Assembly: GCA_903813345.2 (NCBI GenBank)
Contig: CAIIXF020000003.1
Location: 6,037,815 to 6,101,814, forward strand
Origin: Owenia fusiformis
Lineage: Eukaryota > Annelida > Polychaeta > Sabellida > Oweniidae
Direction of reading: 5' to 3'
DNA length: 64,000 nucleotides
The notes beneath the pieces were generated by a model. That model was not told the DNA's origin, did not search any database, and saw only the letters and a list, made by a program, of their open reading frames with translations. This document shows, one piece after another, positions 8,169 through 41,100 of the stretch (positions within the stretch are counted from its first letter, which is position 1; every line of letters begins with the position of its first letter). The position numbers and the translations under genes are program-made.

Positions 8169-11100
8169 GTATGGAAACGCAAATGGATTATCATACATCG
8201 AATGAACGATATTTCAACCAAGAAATCAGTCGCAAAATTGGAAATTTTCAACACAGCCGAAGATGAACCTAAACCAAAGTACGAAAAGACAGTCTTGTAT
8301 CTAGAGAACGTTTCCGTCATTCGGAAAACGAAATCGCGCACACACCCATACGCATTCGAAGTGTGCGATGCGGTTGGGTGCCTGCTCTATCTCGCCGGGG
8401 AGAGTGAGACAGATTCCCAGACCTGGATATCCAAGTTGAGGCAAATATTTTGGCCGAGTAAAGATTCGTCAACTCTAAAACTTGGAACAGGTAACTTACA
8501 TTTACGCACCTTGATCAGCTTTTAATGATCATTTTTCTCATTTTGATTTTAACATTACCACTGAATAGAAATATTTTAGTTTAGATAGTGTATTCGTAAA
8601 AAGAAAGAGCTTGGTCACTTTCAAATGGCCTTTGTGATCTCAAATGAATAGGCTACGAGTACAATTCCTCAATGATTTGATTTATGGATGCAATTAGCCT
8701 CTACTGGGTAATCAGCTCAGGAAACAGAACATAAACTAAGTATATGTTTCAGATACCTGCTTTCCTGTTGCCCTCGTAGACAACGCTCATTCCGAGAGGC
8801 TAGGGTTTAATGGAAACTTCATCTTGGGGATCTTCCCCACGTCTCTCAAGCTCTTCAAGCCGGACGACGGGAGCCTGATCTTTCAATTGCAGATGGGAGC
8901 TCTCAGAAGATTCATGATCGAGGACAAATGCCTGCCCGTCGACCAAATGTCGATACTGAAAATACAAGAAGGACCGTAAGTATAAGCTTAATTATTGCGA
9001 CGGAATTTCTGAAAGGCTACTAAACACTAACAGAAAACAAGGAAATGATATGTATTAATGCTTCTCTTATTTATTACTGATCAATCCAGTATAAATCTCA
9101 TGATGATAATAAATATAATATACTCCCTAATACATAATCCCTACATAATAAAACATAAACATATATGTATCGAAAAACAAACACTGACCGGTGACCATAT
9201 ACATTCACATAGAAAAGGGCAGGTAATTCATTTTACATTAAATTAATTTTAATTATCACTACCGTAGTTTTGAGATATCACTACTAATATTCAATATAGG
9301 CTATGTACCTTTAACGTATTTCAAAATGTTGCCAGTTATGCATTGACGCATATGATATATGTAACTTGAATATTGTTCTTTGAACCTCTTATATCTGTGA
9401 GTGTTATGTCATTCCTACTTGTACATAGAGTTAGAGTCGGCGTAATTGCCGTATAAAGATAAGTTTATACTTAAACAATCTCAGACTACAATCCAGTTTG
9501 ACATTGCACTAAATAGTACTCTTCTAGTTTGTATTTAATTACATCATTGATAAGTAATTGCACTTAGTCCCGGGAGATTAACCGACTAACGAATTGTTTA
9601 CGAACACGAAAAAATGTCATAAATAATCTATGATTAAATCATATAAGGATAAAATAAATTGTAAAAAATAAATTTGTATTCTTATGATCACATATACACA
9701 TGATCATTTAAACATGAGACTGAACGAAACATATTACCTGTTTATCGGTAGTTGCATTCATCGGCCCTTTGGCTTAGCGGTTAAAGCGCCTGTCTAGTAA
9801 ACAGGAGATCCTGGGTTCGAATCCCAGAAGGGCCTATTTTTATCCTATCATATGTTTTTTTAATTATCCCCATAACTTTTATTTTTATGAATGAAATAGA
9901 AAATGAATGATAATTCACATGGTAATATCAAAAATGACATGAAATGATTTTAGGATTCTTTCAAATGGAATTTTTTGTGCGATATATTAATAATTTAGTT
10001 ATTTACATTCACCCTTCCTGTTGGGGTCGCACATAGGTAACTTTTTCAAAATACAACTCAAACAAAAACTCATAAAGGGTTTTCAATGCTTTGATATATT
10101 TCTAATTCCCAGGTAAACAAGCATTCAAAAATACTTCAGATTAAAATCCACGTAATTGTTCTTGAAAATTTAGGTTCCTTTACCATGGCGTGATTTTCAA
10201 GCCACGCGTTGCCTCAAATGTTTGGGTTACTAATTTTCCATTTATTGCATGATTCTATAAAGCTTGGACATATTACGCTAGGAAATTAAAGAACTTATTG
10301 CAACTGAAACCCAGGAATGCACTTTTTAATCATTTTAAACGTATTACTAAATCTCAGATTTTCAAGGTCATATCTGTCAACTTTCGTAGAGGAGTTTCAT
10401 CATTGGACTTCAGAAATGAATTCGACTTGAAAGGAATAAAAGTTCACCTTCCAGGAAACATAATAATCATCATCAAATTACGCAATATTTGTATACACGT
10501 ATTACAACTTCCAGTCCATAACATTGATTTAATGCGCCGGTCCCTCAACCATGGCCCTTTGGCTTAGCGGTTAAAGCGCCTGTCTAGTAAACAGGAGATC
10601 CTGGGTTCAAATCCCAGAAGGGCCTATTTTAATGCTTTAAAACTAAAAATATGATATTTTTACATCGTATTATATTCAAGAATTGTCATGGTTATATGTT
10701 ATGTACTATTGTTTTGTAATTTACTGAATCATTGTGAAATGATTCGGTTTCTGCATAACTTGTACTTTGTTCTGTAAAATTATTGCCAAAATTATTTCTT
10801 GTTTGTCAATTGTCCAACGTTGATTTTATTTAAACATCCAAGACATACTATACTTTTAACATAGCGTGTAGCTTGATACATGGTGACTATCCAGGCCCCA
10901 TATAATATATCGCGAACAAGTTCCCACTGGCATCGCGAGCAATGAGCTCATGTTAGAAGTGGTGCCTTGAGAGATGTGATAAAATATAGTTATAGTTGAA
11001 GAACGTCGTTGCCCTGTAATTGAAATAGTCATTGTACTATGAAATAAATTTGTATTTTCACATCTAAATTTTCATAGAAAATGTTATATTTCAATTTTAT

Positions 11101-14100
11101 CATATCTCTCCAGGCCCCGCTTATAGCATGAGCTCATTGCTTGCGATGTCACGGGGCCTGGATAGCCCCCGTGTTGATATATCACCTGATATGCATAGGC
11201 CTATATTTGTAGATATTGAAATATGCACGGAGGCTTTTCCTTAGATTTGGCAGTCATTTCAATCTCACGACTTCCTTAACCTGATATCTTGAATTTTATT
11301 TCCAGAGACGAAAAATGTGAATATCAATTTTACACAACTGAAGCCCCTAAAATACTGAAGACAATCTACGACAATATTCAACAATGTATGAATAGCTTGG
11401 ACACTAAACCTACCATCGAACATGCCAATATAAATAGAGGTGCAATAAATCAGATGTCGCCAACATCCCATTCTGTGATCAAACCTGACAATAAACGAAA
11501 TGCTGAACCTGCCATTGCACTATCGTCAAGTGACGATACTACAGCGTTACAAGGGGAAAATTATAATGTAAACCAAGACTTGATGAAGTCTGTGCGTTGT
11601 GAATCTAGCCTTTCTAATGCATCGTCTGCTTCGTATGATAGCAGACGGTCTTCAGTTGGATCGTTGAATTCTTCAATGTCGTCAAAGTGTCAATCACACG
11701 AAAGCCCTCTTCCAAACATCCCTGTTTCGGTTGACGAGACTCGTCAAACAAGTTTTGAGTTTAAACGTGATTCAAAATCATTGCCGCGTCAGTTACCCAA
11801 ACTTCCTTTGGATGGTCAGATGGAGTACAATGAGTTAACTTTTGGTAGTCTTAAGCATAGTTTTAGGAAGAGACGAGGACTGAGTGATGTCAGTCATATG
11901 GATTATGGTCATGTCAAATCAGGCCAACAAAGTAAATTTAGAAACTCTAATTCTGACATAAACCTCAAGGCAATGGACCAATCAATGACAATGTGTTACC
12001 CTGACTCAGTATTGCTTTCTCCATTACCCAAATCCCCCGCCCTTCCCTGTAAAGATCGTGGATTTTCTGTATCTTCCGGAACGTCACAAGTTTCCCAGGC
12101 ATCTACGTGTAGCAGTGGGCATGATTCTGGTTTTATCACGACTCCAGATGTCAAATGGACGAACTTGTTTGATGATTCTTTCACTGCGTCTGATGACACC
12201 GGTGACCACCACTTCTTTCCCGACAGTAAACCAGTCGTCGTTGATACACTGGAAGAAGTTGGGACTATTAAACCAATTGATTCAGATGAAGAACTATACG
12301 AAGAACTTGATCAATACACGACTGAATCTTATTGTGAGCATAATAGAAAAACTGAAACATTGCCGAACCCTCGCAAAACAGATACCATAGTTGGAAGAAG
12401 GCGAGCATCGTCTTGCGAAGACTTGGCAACTGCAAAGGAGGTAATTTATGAAGACTTAGACGGATTTAGAAAAGATGTAACTAAGTTGCTGGGCGTCGAG
12501 GGACTCAAGTCGAGCGATGGTGGCACTAGGAGTACAATATTAAAATCTAGTATTGTGAATAAACGGTCGAAAGGCGACTATGAAGAAGTGACCATGAGAA
12601 GTCACAGAAAGGATGTTACCAAGCTACTTGGTATGTCAGAGCTTACAGTTGCACCTACCCCACCTGCTCTTCCCAAGCGTCCCAACTCATTAAATGTCCC
12701 TAAAACGCCTACAGGATTGAAGGCGATATTTGGCGGTAGCGCGTCACCGAGAATGAAGGAAAAAACTCAAAGTGCCGCCACAACACCTAAGTCTGCTCCT
12801 ATCATACAAAAGCTTAACACGTGGCCTATACATAGCCAAGGACACAATGCAGATCATGATGAAACTGAGGATATCATCATTGAAGCTCAAGAAGAAAACA
12901 AACTTGTCCAAGGAAGTGACACTAACGCCTCATTTGTTGACAATGCTTTATATGATCGAAGACGATCATCCAGTCTGTCGCCTTCATTCAGTCCTCTATC
13001 GCTCAAAATAAAAGATGTCACTGTAGACGTTAAGCTGGATGAGACAAAAGACGATAATGATATTTCGATTCCAGATGAATCGGTGAATCTGTTGCAACTT
13101 GATGATAATGACGACATTACACCATTTGACCCAATCAGTATTATGGACCCTATGCCCTCCAGACAAGTTGTTGATTTGTTGACTGGTGATTCCGTACCTC
13201 AAATCACTGATACACTCGTACCTCTTTTGCCAATTAAAGCCATCGACCAGTTCCTTGTTCCTGATATCATAACGACGCCAAACGTTTTGCCAAATCATGA
13301 TCCAGTAAACGTGATTGATATTGCAAGTGCCTCCATTGAGGAGTTTGGAAATGACACGAAGCTGAAGAATGAAAAAGTTCATCAAATACAGGCCACAAGT
13401 GGACATCCACAATTCAGTTGCCCCCTACTTCCTCTTTCACAACCCCCCATCCAAAAACCTGATTCTACCAACGCATGCCAAATGGAACCCGGAAAAATTG
13501 AAAGTGGAATATCATTCGGTCATTCTGTGCCACGTATGGATAAAACGAGTAACATTACAATTTCCACAGGAGCTTCCAGTGCAATATCCTTATCAGGTCT
13601 GTCAATAAGTGAATCCAATACAAACATTTCTGTAGTTGATGCCCAAAACGACAGCAATATACAGTCAGAAAATATATCATCTTATACATCACACGAGGTA
13701 CTTCCAAACCAAAATGCAGCATTTTCGCATAATACTGGATCGACTTCACGGTCAACTATTCCCTTGTGGAATCAATTTAATACACAAACGCCCTCCCAAA
13801 CGAACGAACACGACCTGGGTCCTGACAATTGGACCACATTCGACTCAAAAAAGGACGTTAAATCGGAATGGGTTCATTTCAACAACAATACTGTTGGAAA
13901 TATTTCAGATAGCAATGCCCATAATGCAACAGCATCGTCTGCACCATTATCTGTATTTGATTGGTCGATAAGTGCAATACAACCAACTCTTATGTCACAT
14001 GATGACACGACTCCTCATCTTACAGGCGCTATTGACGATGTACCGACATATGAAAATGCGACAATTGAAGCAGTTGAGAGCAATTATATGTCAATGGATG

Positions 14101-14171
14101 GTAACAGTGACAAGTTGAACCAACTCGACTACGAGTCCATGGATGATTTTTTTAAATGTAGTCAATTTTGA
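8169..14171 (+). CDS. DOK-type adaptor (PH + IRS-type PTB), 5' exon(s) not found
   Basis: Exons 8169-8490, 8753-8975 and 11306-14171 join in frame (phases 1 and 2) to 1,136 residues. Exon 1 here opens in the PH domain (VWKRKWIIIHRMND; the C-terminal helix ends WISKLRQIFWP). The second exon and the start of the third form an IRS/DOK-type PTB domain (ERLGFNGNFILGIFPTSLKLF, GALRRF, YQFYTTEAPKILKTIY). The remaining ~920 residues are low-complexity tail in one exon. They carry tyrosine motifs typical of docking proteins (YEELDQY, YEDL, YEEV, YENA and a YMSM of YxxM type for PI3K SH2 domains) and a proline motif APTPPALPKRP. By family it would be a membrane-proximal scaffold phosphorylated by receptor or Src-type kinases. 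RKDVTKLLG occurs twice (about 12,468 and 12,606). The first PH strand and the start codon lie upstream and were not identified. IRS proteins share the layout, but the PH segment fits DOK better. Confidence 0.85.
9763..9835 (+). tRNA. tRNA-Thr (anticodon AGU), copy 1, intronic
   Basis: A 73-nt cloverleaf. The acceptor GGCCCTT pairs with AAGGGCC, anticodon stem CCTGT/ACAGG holds loop CTAGTAA (anticodon AGT), and the T arm CTGGG-TTCGAAT-CCCAG is intact; the discriminator is T. A run of five T follows. It lies in the DOK intron between 8976 and 11305, on the same strand as the host gene. Confidence 0.96.
10553..10625 (+). tRNA. tRNA-Thr (anticodon AGU), copy 2, intronic
   Basis: Same as the copy 790 bp upstream except for one base in the T loop (TTCAAAT instead of TTCGAAT). 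This changes the B box consensus and may lower transcription. All stems are intact and TTTT follows. Flanks are not obviously shared with copy 1. Confidence 0.93.
10887..11165. mobile_element. Foldback/MITE of 279 bp in DOK intron
   Basis: Terminal inverted repeat CTATCCAGGCCCC at 10887 faces GGGGCCTGGATAG ending at 11165. Inner arms also pair (GCATCGCGAGCAATGAGCTCATG against CATGAGCTCATTGCTTGCGATG). No target duplication could be assigned and there is no coding capacity. Superfamily unknown. Confidence 0.75.
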
Positions 14172-18525: not shown

Positions 18526-21500
18526 ATGGCGAAGGGTTGGAATAAGAAAAAATCGAAGGAGAAAGACAAAGATGATCCTGGAAATGAGCAGGGAAATAAC
18601 AATCATGATAGCACTGTTGCAAACAATAATCAGCAGCATAGCAATGTTGCAAACAAGGATTCTAAGAAAGAGGACAAAAAGAAGTCATCCAAACCAGACA
18701 ATACAGTTCTATTGGTTGACTCAAAATATGCAAGAAGCAAACACGGTATCATGAAAGTCCCAGAAGTGGTAAGTAGTGAATTTCAATCAGTCTATCGTAT
18801 AATGTAAGTCACGAGTGCTCAAGTTCAAATGGTATACATGTAACTAAAGGGATTTTCTCTGTAATTCTGACCACCCCCTCTCCAATTTGTAACTTGCACC
18901 ATTGATAGGTATTTAACAAATCGCCTTTTAAAATTCACCCGCTTTGGAATTCTCGAGCTGCTGTTTTTGAAAAGTATACGTGAGCAAAGTTTCCAATCTT
19001 TAACTTTTACAAAAAAAACTATAAAGTGCATTTGTGGGGCAGGTTATACCACATTGAAACTATAAAGTGCATATGTGGTGCAGGTTATACCACATTGAAA
19101 CTATAAAGTGCATATGTGGTGTAGGTTATACCACATTAAAACTATTAAGTGATATGTGGTGCAGGTTATACCACATTAAAACTATAACGTGCATTTGTGG
19201 TGCAGGTTATACCACATTAAAACAAGGCATTGACATGTAAAAATTTCACCACCTGGTGATGGTTACAAAACTGTAAAAGTCACAGACGGCAAACGCCAAT
19301 GCTAAACGGATCAAATCAAATCTGGGGCTGTAACAATATGTCAGCATAAACATTTGTTGGTTGAATGATTTAAGGACTGTCCATTTAAGAACCTTTATTT
19401 CAAAATATTATTATCATTGCTCAAAATCCAGTTGAATATGGTATTGTCCAGTCTCACATTCATGATAATTGAATTCTATGTTTATCAATTTGCTTAACAG
19501 CCGTTTAAATATTTTATAATACGTGAATTAAAAAAACTTGTGAACATATAAACTCGTAAGTATGGAATGTCGTCGTTATCAAGTCTTGACATTAAAAACA
19601 CAAGTATTGATAATAATATTAACATACAAGTCAAAGTTGGATTTGCAAAGTTCAAGAGAACTTAAAAAGTAGTTGTTAGTAAAGTAACTCATTAATACCA
19701 TTAAAACTCTGAAAACTATGATAGACATAGATATGTCTGATAGTGTAATGATTATAACACTACCCTTTAAAAGTTTGGTAACCAACTTCTGACTTCCCCT
19801 TTTTGACCATGTTTTAAAAACCGTTCATTTTTTGCGATTCTCGAAAATTCCATCACTGTCATTAAGTTCCAGACCTATTGTATTCAGGATAAAATTCAAA
19901 TTTAAATGTTTATGCTTTCACACGCTATTCAATTTTGAGGTTGAGCTTGCCAAACATTTTCAAAGGAGTGTATATTGGGACATTCTTGTGGGTGTCGGAG
20001 TAAAGATGGGAAGGTCATGTTACATTATAATTATCACTTACCTTTCAAGAACTCGCGTTTAATCATGTCACAAAAATAAAATAATTTACATTGGATTACC
20101 ATTTTCAGTATTTTGAAAGTACAATTAACGGCCAAATAATCATAGACATTCCCTTGAAAATTACTTGGATCGGATTTGTCACTGCCTTTTAAGCAAGATC
20201 ACATTGATTGAAAACATATTTCTAGATTAGCTTTCATAAGGTTTCATATATCATCATCCAGTCGGCAGAGGAACCAATCTTATCCTATGCCAAGTAGAGT
20301 TTTAGGGAGATAAGTTGGTAAGATATATCCCGTATCATGATTTTGAGGTTTCCATATCCCGAACCTCCATATCTCTCGCCATATCTCCCGCTCCAGGGCA
20401 TATTTTCCCGCTTCGAAAAAAAAATTTGAAAAAATAAGAAAAAATTGAAAAAAAAGAAAAATTGTGAAAAAATTGAAAAAAATAAAAAAAAAATGAAAAA
20501 AATAAATAATAAAATTTGAAAAAATTGAAAAAAAATTAGAAAAATGTGAAGAAATTGAAAAAATAAAAATAAATTGAAAGAAAATTAGAAAACTCTACTT
20601 GGTATAGGATAAAGCAGTTATGAACGGTCGGTTTGGATATAGGGTTCATCCCTCGTGAGATATGCACATCTACCTTCGGTCCCTACGGTCCCTCAGGTAG
20701 ATATGCATATCTCCCTCTGGATAAACCCCATATCCAAAACCTCCCAGTACATAACCCTATATATTAAATGTGATCATGCCGCTGGAGTGATAACAAAAAC
20801 TATCATACATATAATTCAATCCTCTTACAATTAATGAAAATACAATTCGGGATTATATTGTAAGTTACTGCTTTCACCAAGTATACTGTAGCATTGAGAA
20901 ACGATCCCGACTCTCTATGATAATATATAATTTCTAATTCTTGGGTCAATCCCAAGATTTGTGAATACCAGACAATAAAAAAAAAATTATTTTTATGTTG
21001 CTTAGGTCAGAATAAGTTGAGTAGATAAAGTGAAGTATGAGCAATTGGTATGCAGGTCGAATACATTAATTAAATCTTGAGTTGATTTACAACTCTTCAG
21101 TATTAGTGCATATTTAGCCTACATTTACTGATTTTACTGATCACGAGAAGGTCACAAGATTGTTAATTCGTGTCTTTCAATGAATGTGTCAGAGGGTAAA
21201 AATATTCAGAAGTAACTCTAATACTGACTTACTTTCATCAATGAATTGATCAGAAACGTGAAATACTGTAAAACAATAATGTTCATAATATGACTCTTTT
21301 TTAATTGTATAATAGATTAAACTTTAAAGAAAAAGAAAATAAACACAAAAGGAAATGGTATCAAAATATCAGGAAAGTGGGTAGATTCCGTTTTGTAGTT
21401 TTTGTTTTAATTAAACGGGAAATTATCACTACTCTTTTTGGAAGGAATTGCAATTAAACTAATTTTAATATTCTAATTATATTTGAAAACCCCAATTTCC

Positions 21501-24500
21501 TGTTTTAAAACTCCAGCCCTATTTCAAGAATTGATTCGAAAGAAACACGCATACTTCTACCCATTAACTACAGAGTTGTGAGGAGATTTTGAAAAATATT
21601 AAATACTTCTGAGCGATCAGATTTGACTAAATATTAAAATCCACGAGATGATAAGTTTATTGCCAAAAGTAGGGTTTATTTCATGGTCATAGCGTTAATA
21701 ATATGACTCCACCAACTTCACCACAGTTGATTCTGGCGACTGCCCGAATATGTATGCTGGTCAGTCATTGTGAATACTTTCTATTGACATCTGGCCAAAT
21801 AGATTGAATTTTTGTAGAAAAAAGTAATAATGTTTAGCATAAGTTATTTTAGGCTGATTCTGAGGGACCTCAACATCGAAACATTAGCTGTCTGTCTTAC
21901 CATCCCGTCCAAATCGCTCAGTGGCACTTTCGCCTTCTCATTTACAATGTCATACTCATTGTCTCATAGACCTTATTTAAATCAGATAAATCCGATTATA
22001 ACTCTTAGTCATCGTGGTAAGCCACCCCCTCTCCATCTCTATCCTTCTGCGATGTAATAGAGAGAGATGCTACGAGTACCTTTTTTACATCATGTTACCC
22101 CAATTGCACCATTGGCTTTCAAGAGAGCCTGTGGTTGTAGGCCTACGCACCACCCATTAACGCCCACGCAAGAAGGCGTTTGTATAATGCATAATTCTGC
22201 ATTCAGTTAGTCTCCAGACACCCAAAATAGTTATCAAGATCAGATAATGACATGTCTATGATAATTTTGTACCTGCCCCTGCGTTAACCCCCCCCCCCTG
22301 CTTATCATATCACGGGCATAGAATACTTTTGGAACATCCTGTATGTATTTGAATGTACATGTATGTTTGAATTGCAGGTATTTGACATCATAGCGTTCTC
22401 CATCTGTGATATAGCCACCAGATCATTCACGTGTGAGCCAGTGATCCACGCCGTGAACTTCTTCAGGTTCGTGTCCATAGCGTCCTTCCTGACTACCATC
22501 CCATTCGGACTGTTCTTCCTCTTCTCTCTGCAGGACAGGTTCTCTGCGAAGATCCCCTGGCACATTGTGGTAAGTATACTGGGCAACTCAATGTCTTAAG
22601 TTTATATGCTGATGCCTTTGTATTATCCATCCTCCAAACGCAGGTTGAGATATCATTGTCTTTCAAGAAGCAAAGTGGATGATGTCTGTGCGTTCGGAGG
22701 ATGTCCCAAGATAATGGTAAGGGATAAAAAAGAGAATGGATGCAAGTTATACAACAAGTATAAACAAACAGTTTAGTAGTTGAGCTGTGAGTGAGTAGTT
22801 GGGTAGTGCGGACTGTCATCAGAATACTACATGGCATGACACTATATGACACTATATGATACTACATGATACTACATGACACTACATGGCACTACATGAT
22901 ACTACATGACACTACATGGCACTACATGATACTACACTACACTGTTCACACACTTTACCAAGTGAACAATAGCTCCAGTTATTTTAGGTCAAAAGATCAA
23001 TATCAAAATCTAATCATTAATATGTATACAATGTTTTAACGAAAATGTATTTTTCAGCAAATTGCATTCCCTGCGTTCTGGGCACTGATGTATGCTATAG
23101 CATCCCCTGTCCTGTTGGCGCTTCATGTTACAAAAGGGTGTGGACAAGGCCAAGACGCTTATATTGCAGCAGCGGTGAGACTTGAAAATTCCATAGTAAT
23201 CCATTGTATAAAATCCAATCCAATCCAATGAAATTGCATATGTGGCTATTAGCTAAATATGCTCACAGAGATCTACATTGATCTGTAGGCTAGTGTTATA
23301 GTATGTACATGTATTAATGCCCTTATGGTTATGAGATAGCACAAATGACAACATAAGAAAACACAAAACAAGACATATGTTAAATTTTACTGCAATAGCG
23401 CAAGTCTAGTTCTAAAATGATACATTTTTGTATATCATTCATTTCCTGACTTGCGATTATACATCATGTATGTGTATGTGTACATGTATGATGTATGTGA
23501 TGATGAAAAGGAACATATGACAACACGAGAACACGACGAAAAACTTCCTATAAACAAAATAGAATAAACAATTTCCTTTTCAGGTGTTTGGCTTTCTAGC
23601 AATGATAGCGTACATTATAGATGCTATCATGGTCTTCCTGGACTGGAGGAAGACTAAGAAACAAGCTGCTTTGAAGACTTCCACTACAAATGGACCAAAC
23701 CTCACCCCCGCTGTAATTGAAGAAGGTAGCTTCGAAGGTAGGGTAACAGGTCCAGGCACGTCAGAACGAGATTTGCGAGATACCCCAGATGTAGAACCAT
23801 ATAACGTACATCACCCTCAATATGACAATCCGGGGTATATACCTGACGTAAAAGTCCCTGGTGCAGACGTTAAAATGGTTCCAATCCATGATAACGACAA
23901 TGAAGAACCGACAAGAAGCAAACTGTATGTTATAACAAAGGATGCAGTTTTAGAAACACCATCAGCTGACGCCAATATGCCTAAGGTAGATATGCATGTA
24001 GAAAATGAGCCGAAACAACAAAGAGGGTGTTCCCAGCGTGATACTCCAGATTTTGTAGAACCTCAATTGAAAATCTCAAAAGGAGACAAAGAAGAAATAG
24101 AAATAACCGCACCAGATCTAAGGATTCAGACACAAGACGACAAATGGAAAAGTGTCCCACAAAGGAAAGACGAAAAGGCCGTCAAAGTCACACGTAAGGT
24201 GTCTGATGGTGGCTCATCTATAGGTAGCATCAAGGAATATATGTACAGCGTTAGAGGTGACCAAGACGAGTTAAATAAAGAGACGACACCAAATTTTCAA
24301 CTGACAACTGTAAAACCTGATGCGGCCTATATCGTCGATGAACCTCAGCTTAGACCTTTGAAACGTGAAGTCAAATACGTGGAAGAAAAAAGAGAACCAC
24401 CGAACATTGACTCTACATACGAGTATGACATGAATTACACCCAAGATGATGAAGGTCCATCTATTCAAGATTTTATTATGGATAAAATTAAAGACATGGA

Positions 24501-27500
24501 CTTTGAAGAAAAGACAGAGTTGAGCGAAACTCTTAGCAGAGAAAACAGCAGACCATCCACTCCAATTTTAGGTAGCCCTAACAAAGAGTTTGTCATTGAG
24601 GAAATACATTTTGAGCCTCCGAGTTCTCCTTCTGGTCAGGATTTCCATACAAACAAGTTTAAAGAACAGAATTGGAGGCTTAAATCCCTTGAAATCCCAA
24701 TTAATGATAATGATGACCTCCCTTTACAATTGCCTAATCAACAGTCCACTATTGTAATTAATGGCTCCGATACATCCCCTGTAAAACCTATGTCGGTTGA
24801 AAGGCAGATTCCCCTCCAAACTACCAAAAATGATCCTCAGATTTTAATCCTTGAAGGTTTTGATGGTAAGCCTCTTGTAGTAAGAAGGGATCAATTAGAT
24901 GAGTATCCATACTCCCTTCTTTATGCCCAACAGTATGGTACCCCTAAACAGCCAGAAAAGCAAAATGTTGAAATTGATCGCAATGACGAAGTCTTGGAAG
25001 TCACTGACGGGGACATGACAGAATTCAATATGCCTCCATTAAGTTTCAGGAGGCGAAGATATTCAATAAGCTCAGACGAAGATGAAAAGAAAGCACAAAA
25101 AGCTGAAGGCATGAACAAGGATACGAGTATAGTCTTGGATGTCACTGACGGGGACATGAAAGAATTCAATAAGCCTTCATTGAGTTTTAGGAGGCGAAGT
25201 CATTCAATAAGTTCAGACGAAGATGAAAAGAAAGTACCAAAAGAAACAAAGAATATCACTATCGAACACGAATCAATCAAAATAAAGCCTAGCATCGACA
25301 CACCTGAAGAACAGAAAATTGAAATTAAACCCACTGTTCCAGAGGTCCAAGATATGACAACACCACACGTGAAAGTTGACACACAAGTGGGAACAACGAA
25401 GCTTCAGGCGAGCGAACCAGAAAATAAAAATAAAACAAAGAAGAAGGCAGGTCCAAAAAGAAAAAGTCAACATGAGAAAATTGTTGACAACAAATATGTG
25501 ACAGACATTAACACTAGATCTTTATCCCCGACTAGGTTGCCCGTGATGGAACCAGATGGACGTATAGCACAACAGACATACTCAAAGGGTACCAAAACTA
25601 CAAAGGTTCCAATATCCATCGTTCCAAAAGAGGAGGTTGATAAAGCGAAAGCAAGTGAAATCATTGTTTCTGAGGAGAGACTGACTATCGAGTCAAGCAA
25701 GAGAAAGGATAGTCAGTCGTCAAAGGAATCCAAAAGCTCGACTGAAAGCACGAAGGAAGTGGCTTTTGAACAGGAAATAAGTGACACTAAATTGAAACCT
25801 ATAGAAATCAGGAAGAATGGAAGTGACAAAAATCCAAAATTGGAGAAAGTTGTTGAGATTAAAACAGTGTCTGATGTCAACTTGAGGTCGCTGTCGCCAA
25901 CAAGACAGACTTCCAGAGATGCCACAACTGAAAAAAGAACCAGCGATATCATATACAAAGATGACTTGCATCTTAATCAATACACATCTGGTGATAACGC
26001 TGATAAAACAGAACGAAAATCACAGGAAATAGAAAAGGAAACACGAAAGGGAGAGTTCGATGTAAACGTAACAATCCCGAGTGTGGACTTATCCATCGGA
26101 AGCTTGAGTGAAGATCCAAGTGTCACAAAACAGCCGAAAATACCACAGGTTGAGGAAACCGTAACAAAAACAACATCTGTAACAGAAAAGGATGATGATG
26201 CAAAGCGAAAAGAAGAAAAACCTAAGAAACCTCCCAAAGAACCGCAAATTGAAAAAATTGTTGAAACAAAAACTGTTTCAGATATTAATGTTCGATCTTT
26301 CTCTCCTACTCGCCAACACTCGAGAGAGCAACGCAATGAGACAATACAAAGACAACGTTTCACGAAGGATAACTTTCATATTGATCAATTCTCCAATGTA
26401 AATATGCAATCACCAACAAAGGAACAGCGCAAAGACAGTACAACATCAGAGCAAAGTAAACAATCTAAAGATAACCAGAAGGACGGAATGGCAACAGAGG
26501 TCATGGGGCTACAAGAGATTGAAGAACAATCATCAACATTCCACATTGAGAAACCTCAAGCAGATATACAGGATTCGGTATCAGACACAAGTGATAGAGA
26601 AAAGCATGAAATACCAAAACCCCAAAAATCTGTTACGAAATCTGATCATAAAGAAAAGAATAGCAAATCGAAAAAACATAAAAAGGAAAAACAAGAAGAA
26701 AAAATAGTTGAAACTAAAACTGTTTCAGATATCAATGTTCGCTCATTTTCACCTACTCGACAACCATCGACTGAGGTAAAAAACGAAACAATTCATCAAA
26801 AGGGAGTGACTAAAGACAACTTCCACATTGATCAATTTACAACAAGCCAATCTGTAGAGCAAAAAGAGAAGCCAGTAAAGGATTCAACTCAATCCAAAGG
26901 GATGAAGTTTAAAACCTCTATAAATATAACAGACGTGGACAAATCTCTAGAGGCTCCGAGCCTGAAGTTGAAAACGAAGACACCCGAGGTTCCACAAGCG
27001 GAGGCGGTTACGTTCAAAACTCCAACAGTGAAAGATTTAAAAGTTAAGACTCCAAAACCTGATGTTGATGTGAAAGTAGAAACAAAAGCACCGCAAGGCG
27101 AGGAAATAAAATTTGAAGCACCTACTGTAAAAGAGTTAAACCTAGAAAAACCAAAGACAGACATCGATGTGAAGGTGAAAGCCAAAGTGCCACAAACTGA
27201 AGCAGTGGTATTCGACAGGCCAACTGTAAAAGATATAACTGTGCGAAAACCAAAGGCAGACGTCGATTTTAAACTAAAAGGAAAAGCCCCACAAGCTGGA
27301 GGTATTAAATTTGAAAGTCCAACTGTGAACGAGTTCGCTTTAGACAAACCAAAAGCAGACGTCGATTTTAAATTAAAGGGAAAAGCCCCACAAGCTGAAG
27401 GTATTAAATTTGAAAGTCCAACCGTGAAAGAGTTCGCTTTAGACAAACCAAAAGCAGACGTCGATTTTAAACTAAAAGGAAAAGCCCCACAAGCCGAAGG

Positions 27501-29775
27501 TATTAAATTTGAAAGTCCAACTGTGAACGAGTTCGCTTTAGACAAACCAAAAGCAGACGCCGATTTTAAACTAAAGGGAAAAGCCCCACAAGTCGAGGGT
27601 ATTAAATTTGAAAGTCCTACTGTGGAAGAGTTCGCTATAGACAAACCAAAAGCAGACGTCGATTTTAAATTAAAAGGAAAAGCCCCACAAGCCGAAGGTA
27701 TTAAATTTGAAAGTCCAACCGTGAAAGAGTTCGCTTTAGACAAACCGAAAGCTGACGTCGATTTTAAACTAAAAGGAAAAGCCCCACAAGCTGAAGGTAT
27801 TAAATTTGAAAGTCCAACCGTGAACGAGTTCGCTTTAGACAAACCAAAAGCAGACGTCGATTTTAAACTAAAAGGAAAAGCCCCACAAGCAGAAGGTATT
27901 AAATTTGAAAGTCCAACCGTGAAAGAGTTCGCTTTAGACAAACCAAAAGCTGACGTCGATTTTAAACTAAAAGGAAAACCCCCACAAGCTGAAGGTATTA
28001 AATTTGAAAGTCCAACCGTGAACGAGTTCGCTTTAGACAAACCAAAAGCAGACGTCGATTTTAAACTAAAAGGAAAAGCCCCACAAGCTGAAGGTATTAA
28101 ATTTGAAAGTCCAACCGTGAACGAGTTCGCTTTAGACAAACCAAAAGCAGACGTTGATATAAAATTACAGTCACCAAACCTACCACAAACAGAGAAGGTA
28201 GGCTCACAATCTTTCACCGTTAAGGAAGTATCACTTGAGCCATCAGCAAGTGCGAAAAGTAAACGTGTCAAATCAAAAGAAAAACAAATCGAAAAAATAG
28301 TTGAAACTAAAACTGTCTCAGATGTCAATTCAAGAGCACTCTCTCCCGGGAGACAAATATCTTACCATGAACCCAGGGAAATTCAAAAATCTGGTAGTTT
28401 GATAGAGGATAAGAGACATATTGATCAATTCACAGACGTTGCATCAATTCAACCGAAATTTGAACGAGAATCAAGACGCGATAGTTTCGAAAAACGTGGC
28501 AAAAATATGAAAAAGGGAAAAACAGGTGCATATGACGTAACATCAGTTGATCCAGAAACGGAGCAAGTACAAATGAGACACCCCGAAAAACAGAAAATAA
28601 GGAAAGAGAATCAAGAAGAGCAAATTAAAGAAATCAAACGAGTTTCTGACACCAAGTCCAAGTCATTGTCCCCTACACGAGGGTCAGTTCAAAGAGATCC
28701 AGAAACCATAATACAATTTACAGGGGAAAAACCGCCGGCGTTTGAACAACCTGTAACTTTAACAAAATTCCGAATAACGTCCAATGAGGGTGCTTCAACT
28801 GATCCAGTGCATATACGACCACCAATAATATCGCAACCCCACGAAACCATCACAACGATAGGCGATAGAGAAAAATCAGAAAACAAAAATGAAAAAAGAG
28901 CACCCAAGACATCGGACGATTCTGACAAAAAAGATCGCAAATCTAAAAAAGAAAAACGAGCGTCCCAAACAGAACGAATAATAGAAACAAAGACCGTTTC
29001 TGATATCAACAGGCGATCGTTCTCGCCAACTAGACAGACACGTCCGCAAGACTCTATAGAATATATCAAAGGAGATACAATAGTTCGCGATAACCATATT
29101 GCACAGTTTGATACTTCTGAAGGCGAGAGTCCCAGGGTTAAAGGCAAATCAAATCTCAAGGCACCAAAATCGTCTGTGAAAAGTGAAATTAGGGTCAACA
29201 TAAATGATAAAGAAAATGAAGGAGGGAAGTTTGATACTGCGATTCGGCCAATAACCCCGACCGGTATTGCATCTGAACAATTATCGTTTGGTCTCAGACC
29301 ACTTGATTCTTCAACTACCGACCAACCAAGCAATACGTTCCCCTCAGAATCAAAAGATATTGTGATGGCTGTTCCTTATTCGGACCACTCTGATACTACT
29401 CGGAGAACTTTCACTTCTGAAACAATTACTGAAACCATTAATGATGAACGAAGGCAACAAACAAAGGAGGTGAGAGTACTCGAAGGGGAATCTGATGACG
29501 TATCATGGAATGAAATGCCAGTGGATGTTCCTCGATCCCAGAATGCACCTATATCTTACAGAACTGAAATAAGCCCTGGGAAGGGAGAAATGAGCTCAAT
29601 TGCAAGTGATGATAGTTCGGATTCGGCAACAAGACGGTACAGAATGGAGACTGCCAGCCCAACCGCATTCTTACCTTCTTCAACCCCTCCTAAACGACTT
29701 TCCTCAGGCGGCGATGAGTGGGAAGTTGTGTCCTACATGTATGGGGTCAGCACATCCCCCTCTGTCAATTTATAG
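18526..29775 (+). CDS. MARVEL-domain protein with giant AHNAK-like repeat tail
   Basis: Exons 18526-18768, 22378-22569, 23058-23174 and 23584-29775, all phase 0, give 2,247 residues. ATG 18526 is in good context (AAAATGGCG) and replaces an upstream non-ATG reading. Residues 1-78 are lysine-rich and hydrophilic. Four hydrophobic segments follow (about 78-98, 109-131, 147-170, 183-206), in the pattern of MARVEL/CMTM/plasmolipin four-pass membrane proteins. The rest (~2,040 residues) should be cytoplasmic and disordered. It has two SISSDEDEKK blocks (about 673, 721), seven blocks around KTVSDINVRSFSPTRQ (about 818-1982), mostly followed by HIDQF, and a 33-residue array (about 1320-1708). AHNAK/periaxin tails are the closest analogy, from composition only. 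MARVEL proteins are typically 150-300 residues, so this length is exceptional. The end is VSTSPSVNL. Role unknown; a membrane-to-cytoskeleton scaffold is inference. Confidence 0.85.
19018..19222. repeat. 41-bp tandem repeat, five copies (MARVEL intron 1)
   Basis: Units begin ACTATAAAGTGCATATGTGG at 19018, 19059, 19100, 19141 and 19181, and end GGTTATACCACATT. Divergence is low. It lies within the first intron, about 250 bp after exon 1. Confidence 0.9.
20282..20742. repeat. Foldback region with A-rich core (MARVEL intron 1)
   Basis: ATCCTATGCCAAGTAGAG (from 20282) faces CTCTACTTGGTATAGGAT (ending 20610). They enclose an extremely A-rich stretch at about 20,417-20,590 built from TTGAAAAAAA-type units. 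A second hairpin follows directly: GGTTTGGATATAGGGTTCAT (about 20,630) faces ATAAACCCCATATCCAAAACC (ending about 20,742), with a CGGTCCCTACGGTCCCT loop. It is probably a pair of MITEs or one composite element. Confidence 0.65.
22824..22942. repeat. Short tandem repeat ACTACATGAT/ACTACATGAC/ACTACATGGC
   Basis: About ten 10-11-bp units of the ACTACATG type lie in MARVEL intron 2. It is a simple minisatellite with no coding potential. Confidence 0.85.
27252..28155 (+). repeat. 99-bp coding repeat array (9 near-identical units)
   Basis: Inside the last MARVEL exon, nine 99-bp units encode 33 residues around FESPTVKEFALDKPK. Units differ by only a few bases. Three more diverged units precede them (about 26,990-27,251). 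The residue after PTV alternates among copies (N,K,N,E,K,N,K,N,N), which suggests that two-unit blocks were copied. The minus strand is also open for 479 codons across this array; that frame is judged a by-product. Confidence 0.95.
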
Positions 29776-29889
29776 TTACCCAATCTCTTGTATATAAGTA
29801 TTCCCCATTCATGATATGTACATCTCGATGTCCTTATAACTATTACCCATTGTAAATAAGATATGTAACACATAATAATATATAACATA

Positions 29890-29895
29890 AATAAA
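29890..29895 (+). terminator. Polyadenylation signal AATAAA (MARVEL gene)
   Basis: The first AATAAA after the stop, 115 bp downstream, in AT-rich sequence. Position is typical; cleavage is not proven. Confidence 0.55.
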
Positions 29896-30584
29896 AGTTC
29901 TTCATAATTTATCAATGAAAGCTCATTTTTATCGATATAATATGAAGAACTTATCCAATATAACATATTTCATGATGTTCCTATTACATACTTTTAACGG
30001 CATTATCATATTATTTGCACCTGGGAAATATGAGGTTTTTCACAGTTACAGACATCATCATTGTGTATAAAAATGATATAGCAGCAACATTTATCTTGCC
30101 ATTAAGTAATATCTTTCAAGTAATATCTTTCATGTATGCATACCTCTGCAGGCTACGCTGTATATTATATCTTATGAACTGTAAATACCATTTCTATTGA
30201 GATTAAAACGGATGCAAGAATTAGACTTAAAGTTATTGAACAGATTTTTACCTGTAAATGTATGTGTACGTATCTAAATTATTTGAAAAATCACTGAATA
30301 TGCTGTTTTTCAAGTAAAATCATTTATTTTGACGAAGTATTCTATTCTGCTGAAATGACAATCCACAATAAAGAATGCTTATATTGATTGATGATTGTAA
30401 ATGTGTAGAGTGAACATTCAGGGAAATTTGTAAATTGGACTTATTGATCACCCCTCGTGGTCTTGTTATTACACCAAACGTCACGTAATTTAATGCTGTA
30501 ATTCCATGAATAGTTTAACGAGCAATTAATCATTGAATGTATTTATGATATTAGTAACAATCTACTATCATCGCATTATTACCA

Positions 30585-30756
30585 GGGACGCAGCTAGGAT
30601 TTAGGAAATCGGCGAGGCAAATTCAAGTTAAAGTGAATATTATTATCAACAGGACTTCAACTGCACTGTTACTGTCACTGAAAACAAAAAAACATGTATT
30701 TGTGGTATTTTTGGTGAGACAATTGCCTCGCCATTCCTTGCAAGTAGCTACGCCCC
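30585..30756. mobile_element. Small inverted-repeat element (GGGRCGTAGCTAGG type)
   Basis: It begins GGGACGCAGCTAGGATTT and ends GTAGCTACGCCCC. Inner arms GGCGAGGCAA and TTGCCTCGCC also pair. Related ends occur at 49,853 (GGGGCATAGCCAGC) and in the element at 62,718. It is non-coding. Confidence 0.65.
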
Positions 30757-31708
30757 ATGATTCCATTGTTTGTTGGTCTCATTCTATAGTTTACATTTCA
30801 TATTAATGTGTACATTGTAACATCTTGCTTAATTATAATTACATTATGCGTAAATGCATACTATTAAATTATGCGTAAATGCATACTATGATTGTTATGA
30901 TTTGTAAAAAGAAGGATTTCTTTGGTGCTATTATTAAAAATCGATTATTCTGTACAGCTATTGAAAATAAATTTAACAATGGAAAATACCAAATATATTT
31001 TAGTTAAGATGTTTAAAAAATAAGGAAAATGGCCCCTCTGAAACTTGCTTCAATATCTATTCACTGTGTCTTTCAGTATATGGTAAAGAGGACATCAGCT
31101 CTCAATAAAATTTACTAGAGCCAAAGAATCCGAAACGTTTGTCGTGGAAAAGGATCGTGAAGGTGCACAAAAAAACGTTTTAATGAATTCAAATAAATTA
31201 AAAGTCCAAACCAGGCTCCTAAAGGAGAAAATATACACTTTCTGATTCTTTTCAAGAAAGATTGATTCCTCTCAATACTTGCAAAGTTAAAAATGTTATC
31301 TATTGATCTGGATATGTAACACATTGCAGACACTCTACACAGATTGCGATCCTCATAATGAATAAATATGCGAAAATTGATAAATATGTATGATTTCATA
31401 TCTAAGACAAACGTAGAAGGATTTTATTGGTGGCTAATTCATTTAAAAATTGATTTTAAATCGGACATTTTGAAACCTTGCATAAAAGCAAAAATAAACG
31501 TGCTATTGGTATATTTTCATAATCAGTATTTGGTTGAACAGTTGCCGAAAATTATTTATCAATTATCTCTGTCAAGAGTACATCTTTTAGCTTTAAAATT
31601 GCACAAATTGAACCAAGTGTTGTACAAACACTTAAATATATAGAAAGGGTTGTAGCGTCTTATTCTCCAACATCATCTTTTGTGACCTATTATTCATCGT
31701 AAGACAAC

Positions 31709-34700
31709 ATGGACATCTCTGGATTACTCACTACATTTATCATACTATTAAACCTATTAAAGGATGGAAGGAGCATCTACCGTGTTCCCCTCTTGGATGT
31801 GTCCATGATTGATGAGGTATGTAGCAAGTTTGATCGACTAGAATGGTTCCCATATTTTGATTTACCCTCAAAGCTAAAAAAAGGGGATGTGGCTTATCAC
31901 GATAACTATGTCTTGCATAAGCATTTCTCATAATATAAATTAAGTTTGAGTTCCAAAGTCTTCCATTATCATACAATTACCCGCCGAGAATCCTTAATGT
32001 ATGTCGTATGCATGACTAAATTGACAAAAATACACATTTATTATTGTAATTCGTATTGTGGCCAGGTTTACCATTGTGAATGCTCATTTCTCATATTAGT
32101 ATAGTACTAGATCCGAACGAATTTGTACGGGGCACTCTAATATTAACGAGTAACATTTTGATTTGATAACAAGTACAACTTGTAATTTTGATTTCAGTTC
32201 ATAGATGAGTCTCGAGACAAACTCTACATCATCCTGTTTTACTCTTCAGGTGAATATTACCATTTTTATGTTTTGCATAACGTATTCCATACCAATTTAA
32301 CTTTTATTCAAAAAACCTCTCCCATTGAAATAACACAGGAGGCGAAAAATAATTTTCAAAAATGATTTTGAAGCGCTGTAACTTTAATATTCATCAAATA
32401 AACTAAACACTTAGTGTTAAAAAAAGTTAGATAATTCAATTTTCTATATAAAAATATTTTTTGCTGAATCTTTTACTGAAAAGATATCCTGGTTTCTGAT
32501 TTTCCCCGAACCCTCCATTTCCCATTGGATTACATGAGAATGACGATTTTCAAAAATTCATCAAATTTATCATCAATTTTCGACCTATTGTAATTGAGGA
32601 AAAAATTGAGAAAATTTGGAGGTATTGGAAATAAAGTCAAGTTACGTTTCCATCAATATCATAAGTTATTTCATCGCCGGTTAAGTAAATAAAAATTCAA
32701 ACGTAAAGATGATTTAACACGTAGTTCAATGGAGAAAAAAGGTTGCCAAACTTATGGAGGGGAGTGTATTTACTAGGTTAATGAATCGTAAAAGAATATC
32801 ATTGTCTCATTGCTGTTTTAGTGGGATGCCTGGATTGTAGAGATGCCATGAAAGAGTTCCAAGATGCTGCTGAACCATTCAATGATCCGCGGGCTGATGT
32901 TGAATTTGCGCAGATAGACACACTCAGAGACAAATATGTGGAAATGAGATTCAACGCGAGGATGATACCATTGGTTATCTATTACCTACCTGGTAGCACT
33001 GAGCCACTGAAGTAAGACCATGATAGTGTTGCCAAATATACATCCTCCGTTTGTAGGGTTACATACACCATCTACTATGGAAGAAGGAATGTACAGAGTG
33101 GCTGATGTAGTCTTGTGTTCGGAGGATGGCTTTTCCTCGATCAACTTCTTTATTAACTCCTGGTATTTGATGTTCAAGTTTATTTTGTCGTGTATGAAGT
33201 CTCGCTTGTCACGACTACTTGTACCAACACCATCATAATTAACCAGGGGAGGAGTGCACAAGGGTTCTATGCAAGACTAGGTGTAAACCTTTTTACATCA
33301 ATGGGCACCTATGGTACCGGTGGCGATTTAGCTCCCAGTGAATGATCTTCGCATACTGATCTTATGTTATGGTTATAAATTCTATAAATCGCACGCAATT
33401 AGATATCTATTGGTTTTGTCATTGTAATAAACATGTTCGATACATGACGTTGATTCCTTCAGAAATGTAAAAATGAGGCCATTTATCATTGAACGCCCTT
33501 CGTATTTTTCCAGGTTGGATCCGGATGAAGCAATAACGAAGAAGAACTTACTAGACCTAGTAAGCAAGAATATTAAGATGAAGCCGTCCAAGAAACCCCC
33601 GAGTATTACATATACCTCTAAGCTTGTATCTAACATTGAAAGGATAAATAAGGTGCTTGAAGAAAAGATGGCCAGCGTTCTGCTGTTATTTTATGCTACC
33701 GGTAAGACCAACTCACTTTCCTGAAGTATCGCTGTTTTTTTCACGAAAATCATTTGGATATTCTATGATCATTGTGTTTCATAAGCATCATTATTCTCGT
33801 TTGCATAATTTATGTATAAATATGTACAAATGAAACATCCATACTTCAACGGTGACTATTAAACAGTGGCGTTGATTCTAGGATGTACGAAAGAATGTCA
33901 GTACTTTGAAGAAGCTGCCCAGGCGTTCAAGAATGAAGTTAGAGTTCTTTTCTTGCGCATCAACGTCAATGATAAACCGAAACTTATCAAGCAGTAAGTA
34001 TTATGTACATGTAGCATTGAATGTACCACCAAAACCGATATATTCAACCATACATTAGTAATGCTTGAAGACCCCCCCCCCTTTTTTTTAATTTAACAAC
34101 AGGTGAAGTAGATAGGGGGGGGGGAGGACCAGTCTTGAAGCGAGACTAATCAAACATGTAGTATCAACTTAATATATATCATATGATTCAGCAATTTTAA
34201 ATTATGGTATATTGGGGGAGGCTGAGTCACTTTAAGATAGCATTGTGTTTCCACCCATATGATGCCTTATGTAACCTCCTTTTCCAAATTAGTTAATAAA
34301 TAGGCCCAATGAGTAATATATAATATTTGCACTGGAGAATCATGTCTTTTTCTACTTTTAGACTGGACCTAAGATCAAACCCATCTGTCAAGTGGTATGA
34401 CAGGAAAAAAGAAGGACGTTCCAAAGAGGTAAATGTGCATCTATCTAAAAATACAGAGAATGTTAAAGCCCCCATATAAAGTTTAAACCACTTTGGCTTA
34501 TATTGTAGTCTTACTCAATGTTATCAAAGTGTGATATGTGAAACTATTTTTTTTAATTTCAAAAAGTGGTTTTTGAAGGACTTCTTCTTCGAAAAATCGT
34601 GATTTCATTTAAAACAAACTTTTAGAGGTCACACGTATCTTTTAATAAGCGATAATTCATACCAATGCATTCATCCTCACGTGTTTTTTGCCGAAAAAAT

Positions 34701-38144: not shown

Positions 38145-41100
38145 TTATTTCCCAGCCTCTGGTTTGTCAATCTGTTTGATGCTAAAGTCCTGACTGAGGC
38201 TGAAGAAGTCTTTTCCTGATGTGTCTGTAAGATTTGCACATTCCATGATGGCAGAGTCGGGAACCTGAAATGCATAGAAGAAATGTTAGTAGTCTGTGTT
38301 AGTCTAGGATACGTTTAATTAAATGATTCTTGACTTTTTTCAAATATAGAATGTATCTTTTTCCTTATCTAATTGTCTTGAGTGAAGCCATTCCACAAAG
38401 GAATGTTTCATTTCATTATAATTTTATCATAGGGTATTTGTGAAAGATAAAATGTGAATCAGCTATTTTACCTCCAATAACCATAATAAGGACAGATTGT
38501 TTTTTATTAAGGGGAAAATACATAGTCATGAAAAACATAGTACTATTTTAGCTTCTATTAAACAAACAGTCAGCAGAATTCAAAGGCTCCGATAAGATAT
38601 TCTGAAGTGCACAAATGTGATGCTACATGCATAAATTCAGAGTTATATCACCAACCTTGTCAAGTTTTGAGTAGCATGGGTGGTGGTGCTCATAGACTGG
38701 GTTGTTGCTGGCACGATTGTAGCAGCAGAGGAAGCCCCAGCGTCTGTTTGGACTGTTGTTCTGATCGCTACGATGAAGGACATTGCAATGGAAGAATAAA
38801 GCATCTCCTGGCTCCATCTCACAATGTACAAGACCTACAACAAAATAATCACAAACAGATACAGTATGAACGCAGTTCCACGAAATTTTCAGTTTTAAAA
38901 TAATTTGAACAGCCTAATACTCAACTTCATCTTTTACAGCCTAATACTCAACTTCATCTTTTAATATATCAATATTGAAAGCTTCTAAAGCTTGAAAATG
39001 TACTTTTCAATCAATGGAATTTGATACAAATAAATATCTGGGCACTTCATAAGATTTCTACTCTTAATTTGTCTTTGGAGGCAGGGGTGTTAAATAATTA
39101 AACATATTATATGCAGTTTTTAACTTTGACTGGCCTAGTTCCCTCTTATACCTACCAAGCTGTTTAGTTGCCAGTTCAACTCTCTCCAGATCAGCACCTG
39201 CCTGGTCTCCCACATGACCATGTTCTATACGCCCAAGCTTATGGGACCCAGGGACAACCTGAATATATATTTTATATATTAACACAATGTCTTCACACAT
39301 ACTTTAAAAATGACACTTTATCTTTGAAACAAAATGATTGTAGAAATTTTACAATCCAATATTGGAATGAAACTCCAGATTTCTGATTTCTTTAGAATTG
39401 AAATTGTTAATAACTATCAATTTCGATCAGTTCATTAAAATTTAACAATAATGGCTGTTGACTAATGATATTACTGCAGGTAAAGAAGTGTTTGCTACAA
39501 CTGGGGTACTATTGAGAGAGAACAGTGTGCATTTTTATCGGTAGACTACATATTAAGTTGTGAATTTACGTAATTTTGAAACAAATATGTTGAAAGTGTG
39601 TACCTTCAAGCAGCCATTGTCTTGTGTTGCCTTGTCTACTGCCATCCACACTGTGCCCATGTCTGGGAAGAGACACCCATTAAGGTACCAGTACCTATTA
39701 ACATGATATTCTAACTGTATCACTGGGGTACAAGCACAAGCCAAAACTAAATTACACGTACCTCGATTGTCATATACCAGATTTATGATTACACAATATC
39801 CTAGATGCGAGTAGAAGTAATCTTGATTTACGTCATTCAAAATTCACAGTTCAGTCAAACTGATGTCATATTTGAAATCTACATGTAAAATTACATTTAA
39901 AAATGTGGTTTTGCAAAGAGTTTATCAACAATGAAAATTTATTTTTCTTTGAAAATGTGACTTCTAGGTCGGGGAGATTCCCCATAGACCCCATGTTGTA
40001 AAACCACAAAAAGTGAAATATCTTTTCTTGTGTTGGGCAGATAATATTTTCTCTTACTGGACATATTTTAATTTGTATAACTATCACATTCATAAGGGTA
40101 ATATGAAAAGTGAACCACTGAAACTGATGAATATTCAAGTTTAAAGGAATTTTGTAATACCCTGCCATGTTATTTACCCCGAATCAGCCACCTGGTGGCG
40201 AAACTGGTAACTACCTACTCGCAACTGAGTAATTGTGTTGATACATAAAGTAAGATTTAATATCAAGCTGTTCATGGTATCACTAATGCAATTTATATTT
40301 TTGATATCAATGAAGCATATTACATCACATGTCAACAACATTTAACCATTACTGACAGTTAGAAAACCATGGGTCATTAAACAAAAGGCTGGAATTTTAT
40401 ACACATGTTGAGTTTTATTGCTTTGTCCAAGCATTATTATATCAATTTGCATTCCCAACCAAATGTATCTGAGTGTTAAAGTTTTTGAAATAAAGGAAAA
40501 TATTTACTTTTAAATTAAGTAACAAAAGAAGGTAAAATTACCCATAATCCTGGTGCCACACATGAGCACCTCCTGTGTGGGGATCCTTCATTATGACCTT
40601 AGAATGATAATGGTAAACCTCTCCTCCTAGAAGCTAAATAAATATTTCAAATCACAACAGTTAAATGTAAATATATATTTTCTATGTAACTATACTTGTC
40701 ACATACATATATTTCAAATCATAACAGTTAAATGTAAATATATATTTTCTATGTAACTATACTTGTCACATACATATATTTCAAATCATAACAGTTAAAT
40801 GTAAATATATATTTTCTATGTAACTATACTTGTCACATACATATATTTCAAATCATAACAGTTAAATGTAAATATATATTTTCTATGTAACTATACTTGT
40901 CACATACTTATATTTCCCATGAGCAAGGGCGGTTTGGAATATTTTGTTTTTCATGTTGCACCCTCACACAAAAATTGTTTGATTTACAACTTTCTTTGGT
41001 TATCTCAAATCAATTTGATAACATGACATGTGGCTATAATAATTCAAATCATTTTATTATTATCTAGAAGTAAATATAATAGCAATAGCTAGCTGCATTG

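Follow-up and report, generated by a model that had tools for sequence, protein, structure and literature searches.

A MARVEL-Domain Gene of Owenia fusiformis with a Predicted Tail of About 2,000 Residues Encoded in Its Last Coding Exon

Results

A window of 64,000 nucleotides from the annelid Owenia fusiformis (assembly GCA_903813345.2, contig CAIIXF020000003.1, positions 6,037,815 to 6,101,814 of the forward strand) contains a predicted gene with four coding exons, in which a MARVEL membrane domain is followed by a tail of about 2,042 residues. The gene had been noticed in an earlier reading of the same DNA, here called the original prediction. The coordinates, borders and phases of the exons were derived anew from the raw letters of the window, which also supplies the numbering used below (Table 1). 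All four exons had GT-AG borders, lengths that were multiples of three and phase 0 throughout. The joined exons formed a single open frame of 2,247 codons, closed by one stop at its end, in agreement with the phase-consistent junctions of the original prediction. The frame of exon 1 opened at 18490, past an in-frame stop; its ATG had A at −3 and G at +4, and the exon encoded a Lys/Asn-rich N-terminus and the start of the first transmembrane helix (TM1) of the MARVEL domain. The remainder of TM1 and TM2 were encoded by exon 2, TM3 and a loop by exon 3, and TM4 (about residues 185–206) by exon 4. No break was present between TM4 and the tail within exon 4, so that the last exon ran from the fourth helix into long open coding sequence, as had been proposed. 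The 2,063 codons of the exon 4 frame ran to their end without a stop, although ~133 would be expected from base composition; 133 and 215 stops interrupted the remaining two forward frames. The borders and phases suggested that the four exons are spliced into one mRNA. The AATAAA at 29890 was one of 16 AATAAA/ATTAAA matches within 29776–33500. Codon usage was tried as proof of coding: the non-repeat tail in frame 0 correlated with an open reading frame at 11280–14168 with r = 0.77, against 0.18 and 0.40 for the other forward frames. This argument was judged weak, with reverse frames reaching 0.66 and intron 1 0.67–0.71. A 490-residue open reading frame on the minus strand (26889–28361) lay antisense to the array of 33-residue units described below and was set aside. 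In intron 1, a 41-base unit was repeated in tandem about five times; the unit includes GTGGTGCAGGTTATACCAC, and its ends appeared self-complementary by eye.

The PF01284 (MARVEL) profile matched residues 69–199 with 51.3 bits (E 1.6e-13, profile positions 2–134 of 135), above the curated cut-off of 32.8 bits, and the first segments thus scored as MARVEL, as originally predicted. Exons 1–3 alone scored 36.1 bits and reached profile position 100. Adding the start of exon 4 increased the score to 52.4 bits, and position 134 was reached. A control joining without exon 3 scored 35.7 bits, to position 100. Since the score rises with the TM4 exon, the end of the domain falls within the 6.2-kb exon; exon 4 begins with the fourth MARVEL helix, and therefore the joint between domain and tail lies in one exon. 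A hydropathy scan with a threshold of 1.6 for membrane helices showed hydrophobic stretches for TM2, TM3 and TM4.

The gene was compared with human MAL, which has 153 residues and four exons coding 31, 56, 42 and 24 residues, each splice falling between codons (PMC8145151). A provisional MAL sequence was used for alignment, and its length of 153 agrees with the same paper. The exons of the window gene code 81, 64, 39 and 2,063 residues, with all splices between codons. Against this provisional MAL sequence, introns 2 and 3 fell at MAL residues 87 and 129 in all four gap settings and in a MAFFT alignment. The 3' border of exon 2 thus corresponded to the MAL exon 2/3 position and that of exon 3 to the MAL exon 3/4 position. 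Intron 1 fell at MAL residue 31 in one of the four gap settings with the same sequence; among 17 ungapped offsets tried in this region, offset 0 was the best (score 0, next −3). Alignment of MAL with residues 69–210 scored 84, which none of 1,000 shuffles reached (maximum 67). MAL was the one MARVEL gene in the intron comparison, and the pattern may extend to the wider group. The Pfam score, the gain from exon 4 and the MAL-like intron positions agreed with the original claim that a MARVEL domain continues in frame into a giant tail.

The tail had 360 acidic and 351 basic residues, one Cys and four Trp in 2,042 residues. Its position relative to the charge-hydropathy boundary (0.384 vs. 0.415) was that of disordered proteins, which suggested that it is largely disordered. 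In Pfam, searched up to E 10, the sole match of the exon 4 frame was OAD_gamma (E 4.4); the Occludin_ELL domain was not found in this frame, nor was a PDZ domain in it or in residues 1–328. Among solved-structure sequences, nothing matched the tail up to E 10. The original prediction spoke of a repeat tail of ~2,000 residues. The length was confirmed and repeats were found, while the tandem array covered only 429 residues, about a fifth of the tail. Judging from the substitution values of the array and of a dispersed motif given below, the tail is a real protein that is translated and selected.

The array consists of 33-residue units, degenerate at both ends, and a tandem-repeat program placed its core at 27247–28158 with a period of 99. 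Among the nine core units (36 pairs), mean synonymous (pS) and non-synonymous (pN) differences per site were 0.155 and 0.024. Compared with the core, the older units at residues 1340 and 1373 had synonymous values of 0.71 and 0.54 and non-synonymous values of 0.23 and 0.29. The units at residues 1307 and 1703 were too diverged for such a contrast (synonymous/non-synonymous 0.77/0.51 and 0.50/0.55). By these values the array arose recently and is constrained in its protein sequence; pS and pN may both have been reduced by exchange between copies as well. The array alone was modeled with AlphaFold2 without an alignment, giving a regular strand pattern with a predicted local distance difference test score (pLDDT) of 70.3 and a predicted template modeling score (pTM) of 0.76. 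Comparison of this model with solved structures gave 37 matches up to E 10, none with E ≤ 0.001, and a top probability of 0.10.

A second, older repeat, missed in the original prediction, consisted of seven scattered copies of KIVETKTVSDINVRSFSPTRQ (~21 residues) between residues 810 and 2003, here called the SPTR motif. The bit scores in Table 1 come from a profile built from the same seven copies, so high scores are partly built in; on 200 shuffled proteins this profile gave at most 5.5 bits (3.2 in the best domain). The copies had pS of 0.79, near saturation, and pN of 0.23 (21 pairs). H-[IL]-x-Q-[FY] followed five of the seven copies; in four of these five, H lay 41 residues past the start of the motif, and in the other 40. 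A looser pattern had one more match, at residue 261, away from this setting. S-P-x-R was present in all seven copies, which held 7 of the 12 S/T-P-x-K/R sites of the tail. S-P-x-R agrees with the consensus sites for CDK-type proline-directed kinases. With old copies kept alike across nearly 1,200 residues, no other feature of the tail points to function as strongly as the conservation of the SPTR motif. The seven-copy alignment yielded no structure in structure prediction (pLDDT 58.3, pTM 0.13). A further element, VLEVTDGDMxEFNxPxLSFRRR..SISSDEDEKK, was present in two copies with pS of 0.16 and pN of 0.10 and no clear selection signal.

Table 1. Features of the MARVEL gene and other features of the window (positions in the 64,000-nucleotide window).
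Feature	Position	Strand	Residues	Details
Coding exon 1	18526–18768	+	1–81	243 bases; donor GTAAGTAG; phase 0
Coding exon 2	22378–22569	+	82–145	192 bases; acceptor TTGCAG; donor GTAAGTAT; phase 0
Coding exon 3	23058–23174	+	146–184	117 bases; acceptor TTTCAG; donor GTGAGACT; phase 0
Coding exon 4	23584–29775	+	185–2247 and stop	6,192 bases; acceptor TTTCAG; 2,063 open codons
MARVEL domain	18730–23628	+	69–199	PF01284 match; across exons 1–4 with three introns between
41-base tandem copies, intron 1	19015–19223	+		
VTDGD element, copy 1	24991–25104	+	654–691	
VTDGD element, copy 2	25132–25245	+	701–738	
SPTR motif, copy 1	25459–25542	+	810–837	56.7 bits
SPTR motif, copy 2	25828–25911	+	933–960	56.1 bits
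SPTR motif, copy 3	26236–26319	+	1069–1096	63.5 bits
SPTR motif, copy 4	26683–26766	+	1218–1245	62.0 bits
Array of 33-residue units	26950–28236	+	1307–1735	degenerate at both ends
Nine near-identical units	27247–28137	+	1406–1702	KPKADVDFKLKGKAPQAEGIKFESPTV[N/K]EFALD
SPTR motif, copy 5	28276–28359	+	1749–1776	58.3 bits
SPTR motif, copy 6	28603–28686	+	1858–1885	49.4 bits; most divergent
SPTR motif, copy 7	28957–29040	+	1976–2003	57.1 bits
Candidate poly(A) signal	29890–29895	+		first AATAAA 3' of the stop; pattern only
tRNA genes	3995, 7385, 9763, 10553			
U11 spliceosomal RNA gene	4835–4960	+		94.9 bits
Upstream neighbor, possibly DOK/IRS-type	8169–14171	+		see text
Weak eIF2-alpha match	33431–33721	+		16.2 bits, under cut-off 22.8
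PhyH-type gene, two pieces	38626–39843	-		phytanoyl-CoA dioxygenase; 34.5 and 17 bits (cut-off 22)
RRM-containing exon	49503–49823	-		41.4 bits (cut-off 20.7)
Mpv17/PMP22 open frame	55391–56137	+		248 residues; whole profile; 68.0 bits (cut-off 27)

The upstream neighbor of the MARVEL gene may be a DOK/IRS-type adaptor. It has a long open frame with tyrosine motifs, a PH match of 24.9 bits, just below the cut-off of 25.1, and a weak IRS/PTB end at 11280 (12.5 bits vs. a cut-off of 22). Neither its 963-residue frame nor 8740–8976 had a Pfam match, which speaks against such an adaptor. The tail of the MARVEL protein contained one NPxY site (NPGY, residue 266), the kind of site bound by PTB domains; a link between this site and the neighbor is speculation. 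The U11 RNA gene, the four tRNA genes and the intron-containing genes of the window mark the DNA as eukaryotic, most likely from an animal. A sigma-70 promoter scan of the window was disregarded as meaningless for a eukaryote.

Discussion

On balance, the gene is probably of the MAL/plasmolipin/CMTM type, with a last coding exon extended by ~2,040 codons and a product that acts as a membrane-anchored, mostly disordered cytosolic scaffold. The frame, the domain score, the positions of introns 2 and 3 and the selection on the array and the SPTR motif are established. The simplest reading of the exon structure is an old MAL-type MARVEL gene with a grown last exon, and not a shuffled-in domain; the last coding exon, once some tens of codons long, looks to have expanded to 2,063.

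Several observations weigh against this interpretation. The exon joints are predictions from genomic DNA. TM1 lay below the hydropathy threshold, and intron 1 fell at MAL residue 25, not 31, in three of the four gap settings. The MARVEL segment matched no MARVEL protein among solved-structure sequences; its two weak matches there (E 0.3 and 3.6) were photosynthetic reaction centers and were taken as chance. No known motif was recognized in the tail and no binding partner was identified. Relatives were found neither for the whole exon 4 frame in prokaryote genomes and plasmids, nor for 755 residues of it in viral contigs, nor for the residues past TM4 in phages, which is expected because the gene is eukaryotic. 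The array model was moderately confident and, if right, would place a fold there instead of disorder.

A different arrangement would be two products: use of a splice donor within exon 4 would give a short protein of MAL size, and the giant form would be restricted to some tissues. Minor splice isoforms of MAL (PMC8145151) and a 17-kDa form of AHNAK (PMC10682155) provide precedents. A scan of exon 4, covering GTRAG-type sites followed by A, G or T, found three donor-like sites, at 24194, 24880 and 29470. However, the two sites that might eliminate most of the tail read CAC/GTAAGG and GTA/GTAAGA, with exon sides that are poor by eye. The site at 29470 (GAG/GTGAGA) resembles the exon 3 donor, yet only ~300 bases separate it from the stop codon. 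The window contained no further TM4-like exon; the next best translated TM4 match there had E 0.57 and lay on the other strand. Two products are therefore considered unlikely. That the 6-kb exon is part of another gene, with the MARVEL exons ending elsewhere, would be conceivable in so far as the joints were read from genomic DNA, but the TM4 that completes the MARVEL profile opens that exon, in phase, at the position of MAL intron 3, and this explanation can be given hardly any credence.

The nature of the tail was weighed in the same way. The regular strands and the pTM of the array model would fit a folded beta-solenoid rod, making the tail a rigid or elastic spacer. However, when given near-perfect repeats, AlphaFold2 is reported to produce solenoids that are unrealistic despite high confidence (PMC11795689), and the model was disbelieved because of this artefact and the lack of a solved-fold match at E ≤ 0.001. 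With the array only a fifth of the tail and no structure from the SPTR alignment, a solenoid spacer is quite improbable, and the elastic linker of the original prediction has no evidence in its favor. The tail could also belong to the AHNAK/periaxin family proper, as a repeat region that a MARVEL gene has captured. Giant exons beside small ones occur in AHNAK and AHNAK2 as well (PMC10682155), and the array scored 89 against one provisional AHNAK repeat sequence, compared with 42 on reversal, while none of 500 residue shuffles equaled 89. When the repeat was shuffled in blocks of 2, 4 and 8 residues, however, this score was reached in 1, 39 and 312 of 500 cases; since blocks of 4 and 8 residues did so often, the likeness is one of short motifs, and homology was not accepted. 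The unit length also differs, no PDZ match was found, and no Pfam match of the tail was better than OAD_gamma. Capture of such a region is thus very improbable, and of the AHNAK/periaxin-like tail proposed originally only the short-motif likeness was retained.

Returning to the MAL-type gene with an extended last exon, the protein probably fixes a long and flexible platform for docking at the inner surface of a membrane. We infer its topology, disorder, partner binding, phosphorylation and location as follows. MARVEL proteins are thought to gather in condensed or closely apposed membrane. The four-helix domain would do likewise, with both ends cytosolic by analogy with MAL, whose termini face the cytoplasm (PMC8145151). 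The tail would be a long, mostly disordered arm reaching into the cytosol. The seven KIVETKTVSDINVRSFSPTRQ copies could offer a single partner the same docking site many times over, with proline-directed kinases as the most likely switch, given S-P-x-R in each copy. The 33-residue array could be a young, expandable spacer or an additional binding surface. In this way, partners from the cytosol or the cytoskeleton would be tethered or clustered by the protein at a membrane domain, as with AHNAK/periaxin but self-anchored, and the membrane-attached scaffold of the original prediction is plausible. A broader proposal is tentative: as its last exon grew, a MAL-type raft or membrane-apposition protein may have become a giant membrane-anchored scaffold and so have arrived independently at the giant-exon design of AHNAK/periaxin, with a phospho-docking motif, sevenfold, strongly conserved and previously undescribed, that binds a partner at specialized membranes. 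If this is true, membrane domains could be tied directly to cytosolic partners through a built-in scaffold, and a giant protein would be shown to arise through growth of one exon. The seven-copy SPTR motif provides a concrete handle toward the partner.

Known MARVEL proteins are mostly small membrane organizers. Among the listed titles and abstract openings of open-licence papers on the MARVEL domain, CMTM, plasmolipin and invertebrates, none described a giant MARVEL protein, nor did passages of PMC11788884, PMC10792014, PMC7691587, PMC5620054 and PMC10216460. The novelty of a giant-tailed MARVEL protein is provisional.

Like members of the MAL/plasmolipin/CMTM8 group, the window protein has one MARVEL domain. 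It shares with MAL four coding exons and three phase-0 introns, introns 2 and 3 being at the same places. It differs in its first exon (81 residues vs. 31 in MAL) and in its size, with 2,247 residues, 2,063 of them in the last exon, vs. 153 and 24 in MAL (PMC8145151). The TAMP family was also considered. In occludin and tricellulin, too, the MARVEL domain is accompanied by an extended C-terminal part in the cytosol; the tail of the window protein is several times longer. AHNAK, AHNAK2 and periaxin, as submembrane scaffolds, served as the functional model. The giant repeat exon beside small exons in AHNAK and AHNAK2 is an analogy only (PMC10682155). The repeat units are about 128 residues in AHNAK and about 128 or 165 in the AHNAK/AHNAK2/periaxin group (PMC10682155), compared with 33 here, and the window protein, in contrast to that group, would be anchored by its own helices and has no PDZ match.

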